This document shows positions 1,122-47,858 of a stretch of DNA of 64,000 nt, piece after piece; the stretch's first letter is position 1, and each line of letters begins with the position of its first letter. Both the position numbers and the translations under genes were made by a program. Below the pieces are notes generated by a model, which did not search any database, was not told the DNA's origin, and was given only the letters and a program-made list of their open reading frames with translations. Location of the stretch: the NCBI GenBank assembly GCA_913056365.1, contig CAJXLT010000009.1, forward strand, positions 1-64,000, written 5' to 3'. The DNA comes from an uncultured Paenibacillaceae bacterium (lineage in GTDB: Bacteria; Bacillota; Bacilli; Paenibacillales; K13).

Positions 1122-1499
1122 ATGAGCCGATATCCCGCTGCTCCGCCTCATGCTCATTATTTTTTCCCTGCTATCACTTCTGAAGCTCTTGGCCATATGC
1201 ACCGGTCGACATTCTTCGTGTATGCGGCGAACGGCAACGCCACAGATGGGCACGTCCATAGCTTCCAGGGCACCACAAATCTCGACGCTAATCACTTCCA
1301 CCGCTTTCTCGGTGACACAGGTCCAGCGATCCCGCTGGACAACGGTGCCCATTATCATTGGGTAAAGCTGGAGGTGGATGACGAACCGTTCCAATTTCAA
1401 GAAGGCTATTACGAAACGGTGCTCACAATCCCTCGCCACACACACCGCTTCTCTGGTGCAACTAGCACAGGGATCGGTTATTTCCCAGAAGATGGATAG
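1122..1499 (+). CDS. ymaF: YmaF-family protein
   Basis: A histidine-rich protein of about 125 residues that resembles B. subtilis YmaF (PF12788). Repeated His-containing pairs (HAHYF, GHMHR, GHVHSF, NHFHRF, AHYHW, RHTHRF) run along it. They suggest repeated beta hairpins with possible metal binding, but the function is unknown to me. GGAAGGAG at 1105-1112 sits 9 bases before the ATG at 1122 and only 3 before the ATG at 1116, so 1122 is preferred. The gene is convergent with the gerP operon and divergent from tgl. A sigma-K-like -10 upstream suggests expression in the mother cell late in sporulation. Confidence 0.75.
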   Translation: MSRYPAAPPHAHYFFPAITSEALGHMHRSTFFVYAANGNATDGHVHSFQGTTNLDANHFHRFLGDTGPAIPLDNGAHYHWVKLEVDDEPFQFQEGYYETVLTIPRHTHRFSGATSTGIGYFPEDG

Positions 1500-1534
1500 C
1501 TATTGTCACAGCGCAACTGGCGACTGCCATGCCC

Positions 1535-1936
1535 TTAACGCTCTTCCTCGTCTGGCTTCTCCTTGATCGAGAGCAGCTGCCGAACGTGCTTGATCCGCGT
1601 CTCTGCGTCAATACTGCCCGTACTGCCTACATGCAGAACAGCTGAGGCTGACATGCCGAGTATATGGATACTCCGCGCATCAATGTAGGGACTGTCATTT
1701 CGAATACGCACTGGAAAAGGCGGCGGTTGAACTGCTAGCTTGGGCAAGGATTGCTGGAAAATTTGGAACTGCTCCAGTTCCCCTTCATTGCCTAGGTAAC
1801 GGGACTGTTCGCGTTGTACGGCAAACACATCGGAACGCGGGTTGATCGCAGCGCTGTCTCCAAACAAGCAAACAGAAGAATTGGACTGCGAAACCACCTT
1901 CACACTGCCTACCCGAGATAAACGCACACTGCTCAT
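1535..1936 (-). CDS. gerPE: Spore germination protein GerPE
   Basis: Last gene of the gerP operon. In Bacillus, GerP proteins sit in the inner coat and are needed for germinants to pass through it. The 133-residue product has two family-type blocks: an N-terminal SRVGSVKVVSQSNSSVCLFGD, here split as SRVGSVKVVS then QSNSSVCLFGD, and a C-terminal SIHILGMSASAVLHVGSTG followed by AETRIKHVRQL. The middle FAVQREQ and YLGNEGELE segment is also typical. The start overlaps the gerPD stop as ATGA, which argues for translational coupling and against the longer upstream reading. Confidence 0.88.
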   Translation of the reverse strand: MSSVRLSRVGSVKVVSQSNSSVCLFGDSAAINPRSDVFAVQREQSRYLGNEGELEQFQIFQQSLPKLAVQPPPFPVRIRNDSPYIDARSIHILGMSASAVLHVGSTGSIDAETRIKHVRQLLSIKEKPDEEER

Positions 1937-2127
1937 CTTGATGTCTCGCCAGCGAACGGCACGAGCGGCCCAACAATTAATGATTCCGGCGGTGTATCGA
2001 ACATCGAAGCACATTGGATCGTACGTGTGTCGCCGATCAGCACGACTGATGAGCTCGATACACCAACGATGCGAATATTGCCTACTTGAAGACCCTTGTT
2101 GACGACATGCAATCCTTGATCAGCCAT
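1933..2127 (-). CDS. gerPD: Spore germination protein GerPD
   Basis: A 64-residue GerPD homologue. It has the short beta-rich core typical of small GerP proteins: VVNKGLQVGNIRIVGVSSSS followed by VVLIGD. The C-terminal DTPPESLIVGPLVPF stretch is characteristic of GerPD. It overlaps the gerPC stop by 8 bases and the gerPE start by 4. Expected to act with the other GerP proteins in coat permeability to nutrient germinants. Confidence 0.88.
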   Translation of the reverse strand: MADQGLHVVNKGLQVGNIRIVGVSSSSVVLIGDTRTIQCASMFDTPPESLIVGPLVPFAGETSR

Positions 2128-2758
2128 CTCGCCCTCGCTCCTCTCTGAAATGCTCTATATAGGTATGAATGGCCGCATGAATATCGTTCTGCAACGCTTG
2201 CACAAGTTCATCAGCGGTGGAATCCGCGGAGATTCCACCCTGGTTCCCTATATTTTGCATATAAAGCGCGATGCGACCGTCCATCTGACGCACCATATCC
2301 TCCACGACCGCCTGCTTGTCGTCCTCCGACAATGCGATGCCCGCTTGTTCACTCACTTGCGCTAGCATCTCCGGCACGCTGTCACGAATATATGCTTCCA
2401 TCCTGTCGTGAATGTTCGACTCCGTTCCCTCATCCTCCGAGGTCTGAGCAGAGGCTGTACCAATTACAGCATCCTCTCCACTCTGATGCTGGGCTGCCCA
2501 TTGGACAACATTGCCAGACTCGTTCGGACTAATCCCGATGACAAGCGTGCCATCCAATGTATCGACCTTCAACTGTTCGAAATTGTACTCTATCTTGTCT
2601 ACATGTGTGCTAGGAAGCGACTCTTGCTTGGCTACCTGCTCGCGGATCGCATGCAGCTCTGCTTCCATTCGCTGCAGCTGCTCATGCTGCAAGCACAGCG
2701 CGTGATACATCTGTTGCGTAAGCTGCAATAGCGTCTGCAGCATATTCGGGCCATACAT
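2120..2758 (-). CDS. gerPC: Spore germination protein GerPC
   Basis: A 212-residue GerPC-type protein. Residues roughly 5-50 form an N-terminal coiled coil rich in Q, E and L (LLQLTQQMYHALCLQHEQLQ and on). A conserved block follows, with the pattern KIEYNFEQLKVDTLDGTLVIG. The acidic C-terminal half (about 100-212) is predicted helical. The ribosome site GGAGGGGG lies 9 bases before the ATG. About 130 bases with no convincing gene separate it from gerPB, a wider gap than elsewhere in this operon. A shorter relative lies at 42435-42791. Confidence 0.88.
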   Translation of the reverse strand: MYGPNMLQTLLQLTQQMYHALCLQHEQLQRMEAELHAIREQVAKQESLPSTHVDKIEYNFEQLKVDTLDGTLVIGISPNESGNVVQWAAQHQSGEDAVIGTASAQTSEDEGTESNIHDRMEAYIRDSVPEMLAQVSEQAGIALSEDDKQAVVEDMVRQMDGRIALYMQNIGNQGGISADSTADELVQALQNDIHAAIHTYIEHFREERGRDG

Positions 2759-2887
2759 CCTGCATCGCCCCCTCCGGCATCTTACCTACATTGTATGGAG
2801 CGAGTTGCATATTCATGTCGGCAAAATGAGGGGGCGCGGCTGACCTCACTCAGACGTACTGTGGAAGCTTCTCCCTTCTCATGTCCT

Positions 2888-3088
2888 TCATGTTGGCGGG
2901 GCGAAAGGTACCCAAGGAGTTTCAGCAGCCTGCTCGGCTGGCAGCGGAGCAGGTTCTGTAAATCCTCCTGTATTGTAGAGATTAGCAAGTGCTCGCACCG
3001 AACCCGCTGTTCCGATCTGCAGCACTGAGGAATTGCTGACCCCGTCCACGCGCATATGATGAATGGTAATGTTCTGGTAAATATTCAT
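2888..3088 (-). CDS. gerPB: Spore germination protein GerPB
   Basis: A 66-residue GerPB homologue beginning MNIYQNITIHHMRVDGVSNS and continuing SVLQIGTAG. The segment ANLYNTGGFTEPAP is a GerPB hallmark. The start at 3088 lies one base after the gerPA stop, and GGGGCTGG upstream can serve as ribosome site. The longer in-frame reading to 3142 would run back into gerPA and is not favoured. Confidence 0.88.
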   Translation of the reverse strand: MNIYQNITIHHMRVDGVSNSSVLQIGTAGSVRALANLYNTGGFTEPAPLPAEQAAETPWVPFAPPT

Positions 3089-3089
3089 G

Positions 3090-3320
3090 TTATCCAATAC
3101 CAGCCCCTTTGGCCACAGAAGTATCGATAGCATCGGGATCATTCACGAGCGTATTGCTCAAGCCGTTATTCGTTACGGGAAGATCCCCTGTAATGAATGA
3201 ACCCGATCCTGCGAACGTCTTGGTCGCGCTTCTCGGTGCCAGAACCAGAGCGTCGCCAAACTGAACGATCGCGCTTGAACCGACGCTGACGATTTTGACA
3301 TTGCCCACGATGGACGGCAT
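3090..3320 (-). CDS. gerPA: Spore germination protein of the GerPA/GerPF type
   Basis: First gene of the operon, 76 residues, PF10676 family. It starts MPSIVGNVKIVSVGSSAIVQ and continues FGDALVLAPRS, the usual GerPA/GerPF N-terminus, then GSGSFITGDLPVTNNG and a DPDAID motif. GerPA and GerPF are paralogues. I call it gerPA from its position ahead of gerPB. No separate gerPF follows gerPE here. AAGGAAGGA precedes the start. Confidence 0.82.
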   Translation of the reverse strand: MPSIVGNVKIVSVGSSAIVQFGDALVLAPRSATKTFAGSGSFITGDLPVTNNGLSNTLVNDPDAIDTSVAKGAGIG

Positions 3321-3353
3321 GATCGATCCTTCCTTTCCGCTTGCCTCTTGCTT

Positions 3354-3382
3354 CAGTATATGAAGCGCCCAGCCACATGTTC
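3354..3382 (-). promoter_or_regulatory. Sigma-K-like promoter for the gerP operon
   Basis: On the minus strand, GAAC at 3382-3379, a 16-base spacer, and CATATACTG at 3362-3354 resemble the sigma-K pattern (AC, 16-17 bases, CATA-NNN-TA) with one mismatch in the last two bases. It lies about 35 bases before gerPA. Published gerP operons depend on sigma-K. Confidence 0.45.
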
Positions 3383-3435
3383 CGCGAATGTCTAGTCAGA
3401 GGCGGTGTTCTGGAGGAACCCTCTTCGCCTATGTA

Positions 3436-3444
3436 CATACACTA
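3436..3444 (+). promoter_or_regulatory. Sigma-K-like -10 element for the Hsp20-like gene
   Basis: CATACACTA is an exact match to CATA-NNN-TA, 32 bases before the ATG at 3476. With the element at 3354-3382 it makes a divergent sporulation promoter region. Confidence 0.45.
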
Positions 3445-3475
3445 TAATGAATAGTAAGGAAAGGAATGTGAACGG

Positions 3476-3961
3476 ATGCCGAACAAATCCGCAGAGCCCT
3501 TCGATTGGCAAGCATTCGAATCCGCGATGCTCCAGCAATTGCCGTCGTTGCCTAAGGACTTGCCTGCATGGAATCGGACGCAGAGCCCTTCCTGGGTAAG
3601 CGACTTCATGCACAAGCTGAACGCAGACAATCTGTCAGAAGCTCTGAACGCTGGCATATCCTCCGCTTGGATGCCCTTTGCCCGCGGGAGCAGTCATAAC
3701 TATCGTTCGTTCGAAACGCATCGAAGCCTTATCGTCCGCATCCCTGTTCCGGCAGATGTGACGCGCGATCAAATCGATACCGCTGTGAGTCCGCATCAAG
3801 TTCAAGTTCAATTCGCAGGTGATAAGCCACAGGTCATACCGCTGACGAAGCCTGTCGAGCCAGGCAAAGCTTCGGCTATCTTACGAGACGGAATCTTGGA
3901 GCTGCGCATGCCGAAATCAAGAGCGGCAGACCACTATATACCGGTACGTGTTCGCGAGTAA
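3476..3961 (+). CDS. Hsp20/alpha-crystallin-fold protein next to gerP
   Basis: A 161-residue protein with an N-terminal extension of about 80 residues (helical, Trp-containing) and a C-terminal all-beta domain. The domain includes FETHRSLIVRIPVP, VQVQFAGDKPQVIPL and a closing DGILELRMPK, a pattern like the alpha-crystallin domain of CotM/GerT-type spore proteins. The family placement is inference from the beta-strand pattern and the ILELRMPK ending. It is divergent from gerPA with its own sigma-K-like -10. A paralogous protein, with EVFETHRQVIIRISV at the matching place, lies in the second gerP-like cluster at 41629-42069. Confidence 0.65.
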   Translation: MPNKSAEPFDWQAFESAMLQQLPSLPKDLPAWNRTQSPSWVSDFMHKLNADNLSEALNAGISSAWMPFARGSSHNYRSFETHRSLIVRIPVPADVTRDQIDTAVSPHQVQVQFAGDKPQVIPLTKPVEPGKASAILRDGILELRMPKSRAADHYIPVRVRE

Positions 3962-3975
3962 AAGGGAATGAGCAC

Positions 3976-4701
3976 TTACCACCCGTTCCAATGCTGCATG
4001 ACCGAGACGATCACAACTGCGATCAGCAGAGAGGGCAGCAGATTGGCTACGTTGATTTTTTTGATCTCCAAAATATTCAAACCGATGCCAACAATGAGTA
4101 CCCCGCCGACCGCTGTCACCTCTGCAATGACCCAGAGCATCTGTGCCTCCGTCACGAACATGTAAATAAAGCTCGCTGCCAACGCAATGCTGCCTTGATA
4201 GAGAAAGACCGGAATCGATGAGAAAATAACGCCAATTCCCAAAGTAGATGCGAATATAACAGCAGACACACCATCGAGCATCGATTTCGTATACAGGATC
4301 GTATGGTCATCCCGCAGTCCGCCATCGAGCGCACCCAATATCGCCATCGCGCCGATGCAGTACACCAGTGTGGTCGTTACGAAGCCTTCGGCAATGCTGC
4401 CCTTCCCTTGTCCGGTCTTGGCATAACGTTGTACAGTACGTTCCAACCAAGCGCCAAGCCGAAGCAGCCGCTCCTCCAGCCGCATCCATTCGCCTAGCAA
4501 TCCGCCGATTACAAGACTAGTAATGACCGTCAATATGTTCGTCGTTTCCAGCGCCATCGTTATGCCCAAGACGAGAATAGCAAGTCCCAACCCTTGGATA
4601 ATCGTTCGCCGGACACCGTCAGGCACGTGCGGCAGCAAGCTCCCAAGCAGACCACCTACTAGTATTGCTACTGTATTCACAATCGTTCCCCATAATGCCA
4701 T
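3976..4701 (-). CDS. DUF554 family integral membrane protein (YdfK/YqgA type)
   Basis: A 241-residue membrane protein starting GTIVNTVAILVGGLLGSLLP, the typical DUF554 N-terminus. About six to seven hydrophobic helices follow. Conserved segments include GLGLAILVLGITMAL, GGLLGEWMRLEERL and GALDGGLRDDHTILYTKSML, which carries the family's DG-DH-L-KS motif. The function of the family is unknown; a transport role is often supposed. It is convergent with the Hsp20-like gene, 14 bases away. GGAG lies 12 bases before the ATG. Confidence 0.85.
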   Translation of the reverse strand: MALWGTIVNTVAILVGGLLGSLLPHVPDGVRRTIIQGLGLAILVLGITMALETTNILTVITSLVIGGLLGEWMRLEERLLRLGAWLERTVQRYAKTGQGKGSIAEGFVTTTLVYCIGAMAILGALDGGLRDDHTILYTKSMLDGVSAVIFASTLGIGVIFSSIPVFLYQGSIALAASFIYMFVTEAQMLWVIAEVTAVGGVLIVGIGLNILEIKKINVANLLPSLLIAVVIVSVMQHWNGW

Positions 4702-36444: not shown

Positions 36445-38496
36445 TCACATATCTGTGACCGCTAACGTGGACTTAACCTGATCTGTTGCGGCCGTCTCCC
36501 CGCCTTGCTGCAGCTGATACATCTGATAATACTTGCCGCGCTTGAGCATCAGTGTGTCATGCGAGCCGCGCTCTGTGATTTGCCCGCGATCCAGCACTAG
36601 AATCTGATCCGCGCTGCGGATTGTGGACAGCCGATGGGCAATGACGAATGTAGTGCGCCCGCGCTTCAGCACTTCCATCGCTTGCTGAATCACAGCCTCT
36701 GTCTCCGTATCGATGCTGGCGGTTGCTTCATCGAGTATGAGGATCGCTGGATTGAAGGCAAGCGCGCGAGCGAAGGAGATGAGCTGGCGCTCGCCTGCAG
36801 ACAACGTGCTCCCCTTCTCGATAACCGGCTCATCGAGGCCATTCGGAAGTCTGCTCAACAAGCCGTCTGCTCCCACATCCTTCAACGCCTGTTCCACCGC
36901 TTGCCTGCTTATCGCCGGATCGTCTAGGCTTACGTTCGATGCGATCGTACCAGAGAACAAGAACGGGTCCTGCAGCACAATGCCCATATGCGAGCGAAGC
37001 TGCTGCTTCGGCACTGACTGAATGTCTGTACCGTCGATGTATATATGGCCCCGCTGACTATCATAGAAGCGGAACAACACATTCATGATCGAGCTCTTGC
37101 CAGACCCGGTATGGCCAACCAAGGCTACTGTTTCGCCCGGACGCGCCTCGAAGCTAATATCCTTCAGCACATACTCTTGTTCCTTATAGGCGAACGACAC
37201 TTGGTCGAAAACTACATGACCCTTATAACGAGCAAGCTTGCCCTGATCTACGTCCACTCCCGGCTCATCCATCAGCTCGAACACCCGCTCCGCTGATACG
37301 AGTGCCGTCTCCATATTCGCAAGCTGGTTCACAATATTCATGACCGGCTGGAAGAGCCGGTTCAAGTAGTCTACGAAAGCATACAGCACACCGATTTCAA
37401 TGACCGTGCCGATCCCGAGCGATTGCCCGCCGAAATACCAGAGCAGTACGACGAATGCTACATTCCGCAGCACATTGACCAGATTATGGCCAGTAATGGC
37501 ATTCAAGTTGAGCATCTTGTTCTGGTAGCGGAAGTGATCCTCGTTCATCTCCTCGAATTCTGCGTTCATCTCCTTCTCTCTGCGGAACGCTTGAATTACC
37601 GGCATGCCTTGTATCGATTCGTTAATCATGCCGTTGATATCGCTAAGCCGCGCGCGAATGACACGATTGTAATGGGTGGCATAGCGTCGATACAGCACAA
37701 CCCACACAACCATGATCGGAATGAGCAACAGACAGATCGCTGCCAGCTGCGCATCTAGCAAGAACAAGGCAATGAAGATGCCTGTCAAATAAATACCGCT
37801 GGTGAAGAATGTCGCAAGCACGGTTACGTACAGTTCGCGAATCGTCTCAGTGTCATTCGTTATGCGCGACACGACCTTGCCTGCCGGCAAATTGTCAAAG
37901 TACTCAATCGGCAGTCGCTGCACTTGCGCATAGACATCCTCACGAAGCTTCTGCACGATCCGGTTCGCTGCCCCTTGCAGCATATAACGTTGCCCATAGT
38001 GGAATAGGGCCGCTACGACGGTAATGGCGAAGAAGAGCAGCAGCAGCTGTATGACCGGCTTAATCTGCGGCGCGAAGAACGCGTACAGCTCCGTACGGCT
38101 CAACTGCGTAGCTGCATAGTGGCTCTCCTCCTCCCTGTTGTTGATGACGAGCTGTCCGTCCACCCAGCTCCGCTTGCCTTCCAGATGGACCGGACCATCT
38201 ACGAAGGCAAAGCTTCGCCCAACCTGCACGATGCGCACTTCACGTCCATGCGACTCCCCATCCTGCAGATGATCGATCCGCTTGAAGCGCTCGCCTTGAT
38301 AGCTTACACCGCCCTGTGCTTCCTCTACTTGATACCAGGGCTTCTCGATGCCTAGAATATGTGTATCGATAATATGCTTGGCGATAAACGGTCCGACCAG
38401 CTCTGCGAAGACAGATACCGTCAGCAGCGTTAGCGCCAGCCATATAGTTCGCTGATACAACTTCGCGTACTGCACTAATCTCGATGCCGTACTCAT
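36445..38496 (-). CDS. bmrD: Heterodimeric multidrug ABC transporter subunit, BmrD (YheH) type
   Basis: 683 residues, against 673 for B. subtilis BmrD. Fused membrane and ATPase domains. An extracellular insertion of about 90 residues (roughly 55-145) between helices 1 and 2 is typical of this subunit. The ATPase has GHTGSGKSS, LSAGERQL and LILDEATASID with the catalytic glutamate, so this chain carries the active site. It starts 4 bases after bmrC ends. The pair should export drugs from the cell. Confidence 0.9.
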   Translation of the reverse strand: MSTASRLVQYAKLYQRTIWLALTLLTVSVFAELVGPFIAKHIIDTHILGIEKPWYQVEEAQGGVSYQGERFKRIDHLQDGESHGREVRIVQVGRSFAFVDGPVHLEGKRSWVDGQLVINNREEESHYAATQLSRTELYAFFAPQIKPVIQLLLLFFAITVVAALFHYGQRYMLQGAANRIVQKLREDVYAQVQRLPIEYFDNLPAGKVVSRITNDTETIRELYVTVLATFFTSGIYLTGIFIALFLLDAQLAAICLLLIPIMVVWVVLYRRYATHYNRVIRARLSDINGMINESIQGMPVIQAFRREKEMNAEFEEMNEDHFRYQNKMLNLNAITGHNLVNVLRNVAFVVLLWYFGGQSLGIGTVIEIGVLYAFVDYLNRLFQPVMNIVNQLANMETALVSAERVFELMDEPGVDVDQGKLARYKGHVVFDQVSFAYKEQEYVLKDISFEARPGETVALVGHTGSGKSSIMNVLFRFYDSQRGHIYIDGTDIQSVPKQQLRSHMGIVLQDPFLFSGTIASNVSLDDPAISRQAVEQALKDVGADGLLSRLPNGLDEPVIEKGSTLSAGERQLISFARALAFNPAILILDEATASIDTETEAVIQQAMEVLKRGRTTFVIAHRLSTIRSADQILVLDRGQITERGSHDTLMLKRGKYYQMYQLQQGGETAATDQVKSTLAVTDM

Positions 38497-38500
38497 AGCA

Positions 38501-40276
38501 TCACCGCCCTTCTCTCTTCAGATCTGCCTCAGCTTGCTGGCGCTCATATTGCTCCTTATACCAGCCGCCAAGAGCCAATAGCTTCTCATGTGTTCCCTGC
38601 TCGGCGATACGCCCGTCATCCAGCACGACAATCCACTCTGCATGACGCACTGCTGTCAACCGATGCGTCGTAATAAAGGTCGTCTTGCCCGCGCGTTCCT
38701 CACGAATATGGCGAATAATCTCCGCTTCGGTTCGGCCGTCCACAGCAGACATCGCATCGTCCAGAATCAAGATCTCCGGATCTGCAATGAGTGCGCGAGC
38801 GATGCTGACCCGCTGCTTCTGACCGCCGGACAAGGCGACCCCCTTCTCACCGACAAGCGTCTCCAGCCCATCTGGCAGGAACGGCAAATCCTTGGCGAAG
38901 CAAGAAGCATCAAGCGCTCTCTGCAGACGGTCGTCATCGTTGGTGTTCTCATCTGTACGAGCACCCGTCCCGAACAGGATGTTCTCCCTTACCGTCTTAG
39001 AGAACAGAATTTGTTCCTGCGGCACATAACCGATCCAGCCCTTCCATTGCTCGAGCGGGATACGCTCTAGCGGCACGCCGTTCACGTCAACGCCGCCGTT
39101 CGGGATCGGATATTCGCGTAGCAGCTGGCGCAAGAACGTCGTCTTGCCGCTACCGGTCCGTCCGACGATACCGAGCGTCGTACCGCGCTTCACCTTGACT
39201 GTCACCTCTGTCAAGTTATCCGCAGTAGCTGTCGGGTAGCGGAACGAATATTGGCGGAACACGATCTCCGTCGGCGGCTCCTTCAGCTCAACCTGGTGCT
39301 CTGCGTTCGCCACATCCGGGCGGTGGGACAATGTCTCATTCACACGATCCAGCGATGCATTGCCCCGCTGCATAATATTAATGAGCTCGCCTATAGCGAA
39401 CATCGGCCAAATCAACATACCTAAGTACACATTGAAGGAGACTAGCTCACCTAATGTAATCTCGTTATGAAAAACAAGATAAGCGCCATAGCCAATTCCG
39501 ATTAAATAAGCGAGTCCAACGAGAATTTTCACCGTCGGCTCGAACAGGGAATCAATGCGCGCGACTTGCATGTTTTTGCCATATACATCTTCAGTAAGTC
39601 GGTGAAACTTGCCTTGATCGGCTGTCTCCTGCACATAAGCACGGATTACGCGCACGCCGGACACCGATTCCAGCACTTGATCGTTCAGCTCCCCGAACGA
39701 GCCTTGCGCAGCCATAAATCTCTTATGAATGACTTTGCCGTACATCTGAATAAGCAGCGCCATGATCGGCATCGGCAGCATCGCAGCCAGCGTAAGCTTC
39801 CAACTAATTAAGAAGCCCATCGTCAGAATGATCGTCGCCAGAAAAACAGTAGAGTCGATCAACGTCAGCACGCCGAAGCCTGCCGTGTTGGAAACAGCTC
39901 GCAAATCGTTCGTAGCACGCGCCATTAGATCCCCGGTTCGATTGCGCTGGAAGAATGTCGGTGTCATAAGCAGCAGATGATTCATCAGCTTCGAGCGATA
40001 GAGCCGTTCAACGACGAACGATCCGCCGAACAGCTGATACACCCATATATACGTGATGCCGTATATAGCCGCTAGCAGCACGAGATACACTACGATGATC
40101 TGCATCAACGCGCCAGAGGTCAATTCGTTCACATTCATAAGATCGATGGTATGTCCTATCAGCTTGGGTGGTATAATCTCCATCACCCCTACGATCGTGA
40201 GCAGCACAATCGCCGTCGTATATCGCTTCCATTCTTGCTTGAAAAACCAGCCAAGCTTTTGCATGACAGCTAGCAT
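38501..40276 (-). CDS. bmrC: Heterodimeric multidrug ABC transporter subunit, BmrC (YheI) type
   Basis: 591 residues, against 585 for B. subtilis BmrC. Six helices and an ATPase domain with GRTGSGKTT, LSGGQKQR and LILDDAMSAVD. The second Asp of LILDD replaces the catalytic Glu, the known degenerate feature of BmrC, so it pairs with the BmrD-type chain that has the Glu. AAGGAGGGG precedes the ATG. Expression appears to be gated by a leader ORF and two terminators at 40317-40529, as for bmrBCD. Confidence 0.9.
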   Translation of the reverse strand: MLAVMQKLGWFFKQEWKRYTTAIVLLTIVGVMEIIPPKLIGHTIDLMNVNELTSGALMQIIVVYLVLLAAIYGITYIWVYQLFGGSFVVERLYRSKLMNHLLLMTPTFFQRNRTGDLMARATNDLRAVSNTAGFGVLTLIDSTVFLATIILTMGFLISWKLTLAAMLPMPIMALLIQMYGKVIHKRFMAAQGSFGELNDQVLESVSGVRVIRAYVQETADQGKFHRLTEDVYGKNMQVARIDSLFEPTVKILVGLAYLIGIGYGAYLVFHNEITLGELVSFNVYLGMLIWPMFAIGELINIMQRGNASLDRVNETLSHRPDVANAEHQVELKEPPTEIVFRQYSFRYPTATADNLTEVTVKVKRGTTLGIVGRTGSGKTTFLRQLLREYPIPNGGVDVNGVPLERIPLEQWKGWIGYVPQEQILFSKTVRENILFGTGARTDENTNDDDRLQRALDASCFAKDLPFLPDGLETLVGEKGVALSGGQKQRVSIARALIADPEILILDDAMSAVDGRTEAEIIRHIREERAGKTTFITTHRLTAVRHAEWIVVLDDGRIAEQGTHEKLLALGGWYKEQYERQQAEADLKREGR

Positions 40277-40316: not shown

Positions 40317-40352
40317 AAAAAAGACCCTGCACAAACATCCAATGCGCAGAGC
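40317..40352 (-). terminator. Second attenuator hairpin before bmrC
   Basis: On the minus strand CTCTGCGCA and TGTGCAGGG form a stem with a 9-base loop, followed by TTTTTT, about 40 bases before bmrC. Confidence 0.65.
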
Positions 40353-40367
40353 CTGATTCATAGAATC

Positions 40368-40411
40368 AAAAAAAGCGCGAGGCTGCATCAACGGGCAACC
40401 ATGCGCTTCGC
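40368..40411 (-). terminator. First attenuator hairpin before bmrC
   Basis: On the minus strand GCGAAGCGCAT and ATGCAGCCTCGCGC form a GC-rich imperfect stem, followed by TTTTTTT. It begins 22 bases after the leader ORF stop. Confidence 0.65.
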
Positions 40412-40433
40412 TATTTCCGTAATGTCTATATGA

Positions 40434-40529
40434 TCAGATGATCAGACAGCGGTCCTGAACGACTGCGAGTGTTCCCCTAGCATTAACTTGTGTGTGGCGT
40501 ACGTGACGCTTGTCAATTCGATTATACAT
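40434..40529 (-). CDS. Leader peptide ORF (BmrB-like, 31 codons)
   Basis: ATG 40529 follows AGAGGAGG by 10 bases and opens 31 codons (MYNRIDKRHVRHTQVNARGT and on) ending at TGA 40434. It lies between a sigma-A promoter and two terminator hairpins, all ahead of the BmrC-type gene. In B. subtilis, BmrB is a leader peptide whose translation controls terminator formation when ribosomes are slowed by antibiotics. The peptide sequence here is not recognisably BmrB, and the mechanism is inferred from layout. GATCATCTGATC at its end could take part in alternative pairing. Confidence 0.65.
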   Translation of the reverse strand: MYNRIDKRHVRHTQVNARGTLAVVQDRCLII

Positions 40530-40633
40530 GTTCGGGAAACCTCCTCTCGTCATTATAAGATTACGCTGAATCATCCGTATGCACCGCCATCAAGAACGGG
40601 CAACAAAGTTATTTTCCAAAGTTTACATGCTGT

Positions 40634-40663
40634 ACTGTACCACGGATTGTAAAGGAATGTCAA
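40634..40663 (-). promoter_or_regulatory. Sigma-A promoter of the bmr leader and operon
   Basis: On the minus strand TTGACA (40663-40658), an 18-base spacer and TACAGT (40639-40634), about 105 bases before the leader ORF. Confidence 0.65.
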
Positions 40664-40751: not shown

Positions 40752-41591
40752 ATGCACGCATCGAACAATCATGCCGCCGTTGTCCGGCACAAGCCGGTCC
40801 GGCAATGGCTGACCCCGACCAGCGGATACTTGACCGGTTATACCCATACCTTGAATCCATACATAGGCTGTGATTTCGCATGCTCGTATTGCTATGTAAG
40901 GCGCATGCCTCCCGCCCTATTCCGGGGAATACCTTGGGGAGAATGGGTCGATGTGAAGGAGGTTGCCCCTCATCGGTTCGCTGCTGAGCTCGCCCGCAAG
41001 AAGAGCAAGGGCCCAGTTCGCATCTTCATGTCCTCGGCGACCGATCCTTATCAGCGACTGGAGGCGAAGGAGCACGTAACCCGTTCGCTCCTAGAAGTGA
41101 TGGCTGCCGATCCGCCGGAATTCCTGCTGATCCAGACGCGCAGCCCGCTTGTTACCCGTGATCTGGAGCTGATTCGCCAGCTCCTGCCGCATGTGCGGGT
41201 AAGCATGACGATCGAGACGGATCGCGAGGACGTACGCCGAGCTTTCACGCCGGGCACTCCGCCGCTTGCAGCGCGAATCGAAGCCTGCAGAGCCGTGCGC
41301 AAGGCAGACGTTCCTCTGCAAGTTGCCGTCTCGCCGCTGCTCCCGTGTACGGACCGCTTCGCGGAGCAACTCGCCGGGCTAGATGCAGATCGCATCGTGC
41401 TAGATGACTTCTTCATGGGTGACGGCAGCGGCGGGAAGCGTACCCGACAGCTCGGTCTGCAACCAATCTTCGCGGAGCTGGGGGCTGAACAATGGTTCGA
41501 TCCTACTGCTTACCTCCACGTGCATGCCCAACTGAAGGATGTACTGCCAGAAGACAAGCTGTATGTCAGCCAGCCGGGCTTCCTGCCGTAG
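40752..41591 (+). CDS. SPL-family radical SAM protein
   Basis: 279 residues. The Fe-S cluster motif is CDFACSYCY (CxxxCxxC) near residue 45, preceded by YTHTLNPYIG, typical of SplB-related and Rv2578c-like proteins. MSSATDPYQRLEAKE and TRSPLVTRDLELI are further family blocks. It lacks the C-terminal part and length of true SplB (about 340 residues), so spore photoproduct repair cannot be assumed. GAGGAGG lies about 11 bases before the ATG. It is convergent with the second gerP-like cluster. Confidence 0.87.
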   Translation: MHASNNHAAVVRHKPVRQWLTPTSGYLTGYTHTLNPYIGCDFACSYCYVRRMPPALFRGIPWGEWVDVKEVAPHRFAAELARKKSKGPVRIFMSSATDPYQRLEAKEHVTRSLLEVMAADPPEFLLIQTRSPLVTRDLELIRQLLPHVRVSMTIETDREDVRRAFTPGTPPLAARIEACRAVRKADVPLQVAVSPLLPCTDRFAEQLAGLDADRIVLDDFFMGDGSGGKRTRQLGLQPIFAELGAEQWFDPTAYLHVHAQLKDVLPEDKLYVSQPGFLP

Positions 41592-47639: not shown

Positions 47640-47684
47640 AATAGAGTAACTTGAACATTGAACTTCATACTTCGCATTGGTCGC

Positions 47685-47778
47685 TAGGGGTGCCCATAGA
47701 TACTTGGGCTGAGAGAAAGCTGTGAAAGCTTTTAACCCTTGAACCTGATCTGGATCATACCAGCGTAGGAAAGTAACC
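47685..47778 (+). promoter_or_regulatory. TPP riboswitch (THI element)
   Basis: Shows the conserved parts in order: GGGGTGCCC, GGCTGAGA, CCCTTGAACCTGATCTGGAT and CATACCAGCGTAGGAAAGT. It should bind thiamine pyrophosphate and turn off thiC through the terminator downstream. Confidence 0.95.
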
Positions 47779-47858
47779 GGACCGTACAGCATTCGATGCC
47801 GCATGCAGCATGCGCCTTGGCACGACCATGGCGCAACGCAATCTGCCAAGCGGCTTCC

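Follow-up and report, generated by a model that had tools for sequence, protein, structure and literature searches.

On the minus strand of the window, by which we mean the whole 64,000-nucleotide stretch of DNA analysed here, a promoter is followed by an SD-led leader ORF of 31 codons, two terminators and a bmrC homologue (Table 1). This confirmed, at 40663-40317 on the minus strand, the layout that a preliminary description had proposed: a promoter, a 31-codon ORF with a ribosome site and two terminators ahead of a BmrC-type gene. By sequence comparison, the two pump genes encode homologues of B. subtilis BmrC and BmrD, of the heterodimeric-exporter type, with their proteins matching the YheI and YheH chains of PDB 8t1p at phmmer E-values of 1.2e-249 and 2.5e-267 respectively, which bears out the BmrCD-type exporter expected downstream. 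Terminator 2 (T2) is separated from bmrC by 40 nt. A divergent radical SAM gene lies at 40752-41591 on the plus strand, matching the PA0069, Rv2578c and spore photoproduct lyase models, all below cut-off.

Table 1. Coordinates of the leader elements and pump genes in the window
Feature	Position	Strand	Basis or remark
Promoter: -35 TTGACA (40663-40658), 18 nt, extended -10 TACAGT (40639-40634)	40634-40663	-	Scan; conservation in leader L003
Leader ORF, 31 codons and stop, MYNRIDKRHVRHTQVNARGTLAVVQDRCLII	40434-40529	-	ATG at 40529, stop at 40436-40434
Segment 1: leader SD region, AGGAGG (40545-40540) then GUUUCCCG	40530-40551	-	Predicted pairing 1:2, p 0.016
Segment 2: ORF nucleotides 53-74, beginning GGGGAACACUCGCAG	40456-40477	-	Predicted partner of segment 1 or 3
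Segment 3: 5' arm and foot of terminator 1; predicted antiterminator partner of segment 2	40393-40413	-	Folds, pairing tests
Terminator 1 (segments 3:4), U-tract 40374-40368	40368-40409	-	-19.4 kcal/mol, 7 T
Terminator 2, U-tract 40322-40317	40317-40354	-	-17.7 kcal/mol, 6 T
bmrC homologue, ABC half-exporter	38501-40276	-	phmmer
bmrD homologue, ABC half-exporter	36445-38496	-	phmmer

By scan alone, the promoter is at chance level (2 sites found against 1.9 expected), with TG preceding its -10 element. The promoter stretch is near-identical in L003, a leader from the same genus, the remaining 5' UTR aligning at 45% identity, and this conservation offers a better argument for the putative promoter than the scan. 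Also in the 5' UTR, positions 40604-40588 repeat the GUUGCCCGUU..UGAUG of the terminator 1 (T1) arm and loop (40399-40386) almost letter for letter, a repeat that is missing from the aligned L003 5' UTR. A mechanical ORF list gives the leader frame from an earlier in-frame ATG at 40574 (46 codons); this start has no SD match of at least 4 under the SD rule, and the ATG at 40529, with AGGAGG ten bases 5' of it, was kept. The ORF stops 24 nt 5' of T1. Neither T1 nor T2 was listed by a generic terminator scan of the window, probably because T1 folds with an internal loop and T2 with a 9-nt loop. An Rfam search of the window returned no leader RNA above the gathering score, its sole match being a TPP riboswitch elsewhere (47676-47788, plus strand, RF00059, 71.7 bits), and an NCBIfam search with the leader peptide found no match.

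With the leader DNA as query, 4 of 149 genomes matched, including the window's own and that of L003 (71%); the other two matches spanned about 30 nt each (E 0.005-0.006). Because so few genomes matched, leaders were gathered through the pump gene, giving 163 bmrC leaders with the window included. Set 1 holds 81 leaders (80 bmrC loci, less L069 with only about 150 bases 5' of its match, plus the window and L003). Set 2 consists of the 53 left from 68 further loci of the same order after removal of 15 near copies, and set 3, mostly from the Bacillus side, of the 29 left from 56 loci of class-wide and Bacillus-genus searches (27 near copies removed). Our rule asked for an ATG ORF of 17-43 codons, an SD match of at least 5 and a first terminator 10-100 nt past the stop; 54 of 81, 35 of 53 and 25 of 29 leaders of sets 1, 2 and 3 satisfied it, with median ORF lengths of 28.5, 31 and 26 codons, and 27, 18 and 4 failed it. 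A leader ORF with terminators is thus found 5' of many bmrC homologues across Bacilli. In some genera, leaders L132, L133, L136-L138, L142 and L143 carry another type of leader ORF (..QPNTEA.., ..QPNT.. or ..RNPAA); some of these ORFs have GTG starts, and the first terminator lies 83-132 nt past the stop. In several Bacillaceae loci, an additional small ORF sits immediately 5' of bmrC, its end conserved as ..GDP[DE]SG or ..EGG (for example L014 at -98..-35, L159 at -107..-44 and L186 at 396-477); the window is without one.

Terminators lie 5' of most bmrC genes examined, as they would if the tandem terminators were a constitutive insulator only and the small ORF a chance or unrelated one. We regard this as very unlikely: the ORF-terminator arrangement occurs in 89 of 134 real bmrC upstream regions of sets 1 and 2 (45 lying outside the rule) against 1 of 134 dinucleotide shuffles, the ORF tail and the T1 arm co-vary as set out below, and the B. 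subtilis homologue is inducible.

Fourteen leaders were folded up to the T1 3' arm; in many of them the ORF end pairs with the T1 5' arm, and the leader SD region is able to pair with the same ORF segment. We denote the leader SD region as segment 1, the 3' end of the leader ORF as segment 2, and the T1 arms as segments 3 and 4. The family-level tests below support the prediction that leaders with this layout share these four RNA segments, with 1 pairing with 2 and 2 with 3. In a joint test, one 22-nt ORF stretch was paired with both the 22 nt before the ATG and the T1 5' arm, and compared against ORF shuffles. Joint pairing reached p <= 0.05 in 37 of 54 leaders of set 1 (mean z -3.3), in 26 of 35 of the deduplicated set 2 (mean z -3.2) and in 12 of 25 of set 3 (mean z -2.3).

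In a swap test, the whole ORF tail was used, segment 2 not being chosen, and partners were exchanged among species in 5000 permutations that ignored the family tree. Own 1:2 and 2:3 scores in set 1 were -1.51 and -1.35, the lowest of the 5000 permutations being -0.49 and -0.54. No permutation reached the own score for either pairing in set 2; in set 3, 0 of 5000 did so for 1:2 and 1 of 5000 for 2:3. Pooled over 112 leaders (2 of the 114 left out), 1:2 scored -1.50 and 2:3 -1.28 at a permutation standard deviation of 0.095. The own partner ranked first in 7 (1:2) and 5 (2:3) of the 54 leaders of set 1, and came within the top five in 30 and 20. Perfect Watson-Crick 1:2 helices of at least 6 bp occur in 73 of 114 leaders with 49 different sequences, and perfect 2:3 helices of at least 5 bp in 67 of 114 with 48 sequences, so that base pairing persists through changes of sequence. 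The best 1:2 helix and the best 2:3 helix, both perfect, have at least 4 ORF nt in common in only 22 of the 114. In single-pairing shuffle tests with looser boundaries, 17 of 59 leaders (2:3) and 27 of 59 (1:2) beat their shuffles, a weak result that we tentatively attribute to long spurious duplexes masking the signal in GC-rich leaders.

The controls on which we rely are the swaps in set 2, with T2 and with the bmrC ribosome site. In set 2, swaps of the 5' UTR with T1 and of the SD region with the spacer gave no signal. Most controls were negative. Four pairings were weak exceptions, each reaching roughly a third to a half of the main signal it is compared with: in set 2, the ORF head with T1 (-0.46, 20 of 5000); in set 1, the SD region with the spacer (-0.30 at a standard deviation of 0.136); and the two pairings with the T2 5' arm given below. 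Similarity between segments 1 and 3 was considered and set aside, being weaker than both pairings (own score -0.47, standard deviation 0.138, level with the lowest of 5000), and the own partner ranked first in none of set 1. A family-wide pairing between leader and bmrC ribosome site was rejected: between the bmrC ribosome-site region and the four leader segments of the same genomes, pooled scores lay between -0.05 and 0.09, and 1412 to 4076 of 5000 permutations reached the own score for the four pairs. GGGGAAC recurs 5' of bmrC in both the window and L003.

Two terminators in a row, which the preliminary description had called unusual, turned out to be the norm in the bmrC leader family: two or more are present in 42 of 54, 32 of 35 and 15 of 25 leaders of the three sets, and a second terminator within 140 nt of T1 follows in 85 of 112 leaders compared to 13 of 112 shuffles. 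Control of T2 by the ORF tail was ruled out, since 4423 of 5000 permutations reached the own score. Pairing of the T1 3' arm with the T2 5' arm scored -0.46, with none of 5000 permutations as good (79 leaders), and may form a possible relay that spares T2 when the antiterminator forms; because the SD region with the T2 5' arm likewise beat the permuted pairs (own score -0.37, 3 of 5000), we treat it as a lead only.

In the window itself, joint pairing amounts to -37.1 kcal/mol against a shuffle mean of -26.1 (p 0.012), and 1:2 on its own stands out from shuffles as listed in Table 1. The antiterminator pairing with the ORF region, for which the preliminary description had looked to folding of the leader, is supported at family level by the swap tests and not in the window alone, where 2:3 is no better than shuffles (p 0.36). 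Leader L003 taken alone gave no significant value (joint p 0.068, 1:2 p 0.13, 2:3 p 0.14). Between the two leaders, segments 1, 2, 3 and 4 are 89, 100, 93 and 89% identical (17 of 19 aligned positions in segment 1), compared to 52% for the ORF 5' of segment 2 and 45% for the 5' UTR.

Ribosome-free folds of the window and L003 leaders both contain 1:2 together with T1. When the start site was masked in L003, segment 2 switched to segment 3 before the 3' arm was made. Masking in the window also freed segment 2; the whole-leader fold, 5' UTR included, prefers other partners over 2:3, and 2:3 appears in the fold when the 5' UTR is left out. A ribosome modelled at codon 20 hides segment 2 under its footprint, and with one at codon 5 or 10 the fold reverts to 1:2 in both leaders, so that a model of this kind needs the SD or start site to be occupied and not merely an early ribosome. 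Complete T1 is a more stable fold than the antiterminator, and the antiterminator must therefore win kinetically.

The leader peptide is not conserved, and the same segment 2 letters are read in different frames. The leader ORFs of the window and L003, of 31 codons each, share the first 15 nt of segment 2, read in frames 1 and 0, and encode peptides without real similarity (local score 15). The motif CGTAATCCATCCG is translated as RNPS in L012, L021 and L045, and as VIHP in L020, L023, L024, L042, L070 and L072. In L146 and L147, both from one genus, GACGTAACCCTCGCGC is read as GRNPRA or DVTLA, and 22 identical letters as GRNPRAN or DVTLAQ; the N-terminal parts of these two peptides are still alike (local score 51). 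Such frame changes over conserved RNA bear out the earlier suggestion that the mechanism may be conserved and the peptide not, and point to the RNA pairing network, the leader's own SD region included, as the thing that is conserved.

Leaders of the ermC type work by peptide-specific, drug-dependent stalling. A similar drug-dependent arrest at specific leader-peptide residues, selecting the antiterminator, would suit the SD-led, similarly long ORFs that pass our rule and the C-termini conserved inside some clades (VIHPRV, RNPS, GRNP). The conserved C-terminal words are, however, one RNA motif in different frames (CGTAATCCATCCG, GACGTAACCCTCGCGC), and the window and L003 peptides are without real similarity in the above comparison; we judge peptide stalling to be quite unlikely.

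We consider it likely that the window leader belongs with the bmrBCD-type, ribosome-mediated transcription attenuators, and that its four RNA segments are gated by the position of the ribosome, not by the peptide. Its ORF, terminators and pump genes can be read directly from the sequence, and the predicted pairings 1:2 and 2:3 are supported by co-variation in the family. The homologous pump and the recurrence of a leader ORF with terminators across Bacilli also support the earlier reading of a BmrB-like leader attenuator before a BmrCD-type exporter. Without a ribosome, segment 1 would pair with segment 2 as an anti-antiterminator that partly covers the leader SD, 3:4 would form T1 and the pump would be off. 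A ribosome binding the SD would break 1:2; running freely, it would pass over segment 2, T1 would form and the pump would again be off. A translation inhibitor holding the ribosome at the start codon, or a queue keeping the SD occupied, would leave segment 1 covered, and the free segment 2 could then pair with segment 3 as the antiterminator, allowing readthrough of T1 into bmrCD. The sequence of the peptide would be irrelevant in this scheme, with the position of the ribosome alone mattering. In trp-type attenuators, alternating RNA segments are read by the leader ribosome; the window leader differs in that segment 1 contains the leader SD and in lacking repeated regulatory codons, no run of codons for one amino acid being found in its peptide. 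We infer drugs as the signal, the order of events and passage of T2, with drug induction taken by analogy from B. subtilis (PMC4191407).

According to the accessible parts of that study of the B. subtilis bmrBCD attenuator (Reilman et al. 2014, PMC4191407), an untranslated leader gives low expression that is not inducible, a codon-optimised bmrB leader stays inducible, and bmrCD is induced by lincomycin, erythromycin and chloramphenicol and not by kanamycin or gentamicin. These data fit the four-segment model in all three respects: an untranslated leader is off, codon optimisation is tolerated and drugs differ. In the two-state antitermination drawn for B. subtilis in the same source, slow translation leads to the antiterminator and the leader SD has no role. 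This published model shares the 2:3 pairing supported here at family level, but it has difficulty accounting for the off state of an untranslated leader; moreover, co-variation for 1:2 equals or exceeds that for 2:3, and 1:2 is the ribosome-free fold of the window and L003. We therefore hold the two-state scheme to be unlikely and prefer ribosome gating through four segments.

One genome (G695) was taken as that of B. subtilis, with leader L186, because a stretch of 306 BmrC residues matches the PDB YheI chain at 100% identity and an upstream ORF, ending 119 bp before bmrC, fits the published bmrB (GTG start, 162 bp, 53 residues, terminator inside). L186, a near copy within set 3, was tested separately. 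Starting 16 nt 5' of the annotated GTG in a different frame is a 23-codon ATG ORF with AAGGAGG, which ends 58 nt before the terminator and carries segment 2 (1:2 p 0.001, joint p 0.006, 2:3 alone p 0.21). Among the 17 of 26 Bacillus leaders nearest B. subtilis, the ATG of this ORF is kept in 17 of 17 genomes, which are related and not independent, and a start at the annotated position with a frame open through the terminator in 8 of 17. From this comparison, the leader ORF that has been conserved is probably not the annotated BmrB, even in B. subtilis itself. The available text of PMC4191407 reports that annotated bmrB, fused in frame, gave no detectable fluorescence from the chromosome and was fluorescent from a plasmid, and that the bmrB start mutant also bore four upstream changes by which other possible starts or ribosome sites were lost. 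Fluorescence from the plasmid fusion indicates that ribosomes can translate the annotated frame; given the fusion results and the additional changes in the mutant, the published data cannot separate the two B. subtilis ORFs. Our assessment leans, if modestly, towards a sequence-blind sensor across Bacilli, in which the ORF would only place the ribosome, its own SD would be the first of four segments and the frame would be free, and in which the true B. subtilis leader would be the 23-codon ATG ORF (MPRNLRVYQTVSYWRGKPFVLFS), with the 53-residue BmrB mis-annotated at least as the sensing ORF.

The window shares with the published B. subtilis attenuator a homologous pump, a translated leader and an intrinsic terminator before bmrC. 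It differs from it in having 31 codons with the stop 24 nt before T1 and a second terminator, whereas in published BmrB, which starts at GTG and has 53 residues, the terminator falls within the ORF. As far as the text of PMC4191407 is accessible, the predicted bmrB structures lie in nucleotides 60-162, and the role of the anti-antiterminator 'remains unclear'; here, we assign it to the leader SD region. The B. subtilis vmlR leader (PMC9226507, in the part available) resembles the window in having a uORF with an anti-antiterminator, antiterminator and terminator, and uORF variants from other species work in it; unlike the window, it has a three-codon uORF, one described terminator and an ABCF protein as its product, and it also has a hairpin sequestering the vmlR SD, of which bmrC leaders gave no family-wide sign. 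The S. pneumoniae patA leader likewise places an ABC exporter under a predicted terminator, antiterminator and anti-antiterminator, but no leader ORF is named in the accessible portion of PMC4319486, and induction is reported for fluoroquinolones and DNA damage. The short B. subtilis ORF, the SD-region pairing and the conservation of the leader are undescribed in the partial texts of the literature searched, outside which lie many subscription papers; the available parts of PMC2965389, PMC8670375, PMC5821984, PMC10100781 and PMC10983992 are likewise without such a description.

For the bmrCD attenuator, earlier dissected in B. subtilis in the portions of the literature available, the four-segment model would provide an explicit switch logic backed by many Bacilli. 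It offers a possible explanation for three B. subtilis results, namely that an untranslated leader is off, that codon changes are tolerated and that drugs differ in inducing power, and under it the annotated B. subtilis leader peptide is predicted to lie in the wrong frame. A B. cereus pump inducible by ribosome-targeting drugs has, in the accessible text of PMC5417439, no clear BmrB homologue upstream, which may be explained if the peptide is not the conserved part.
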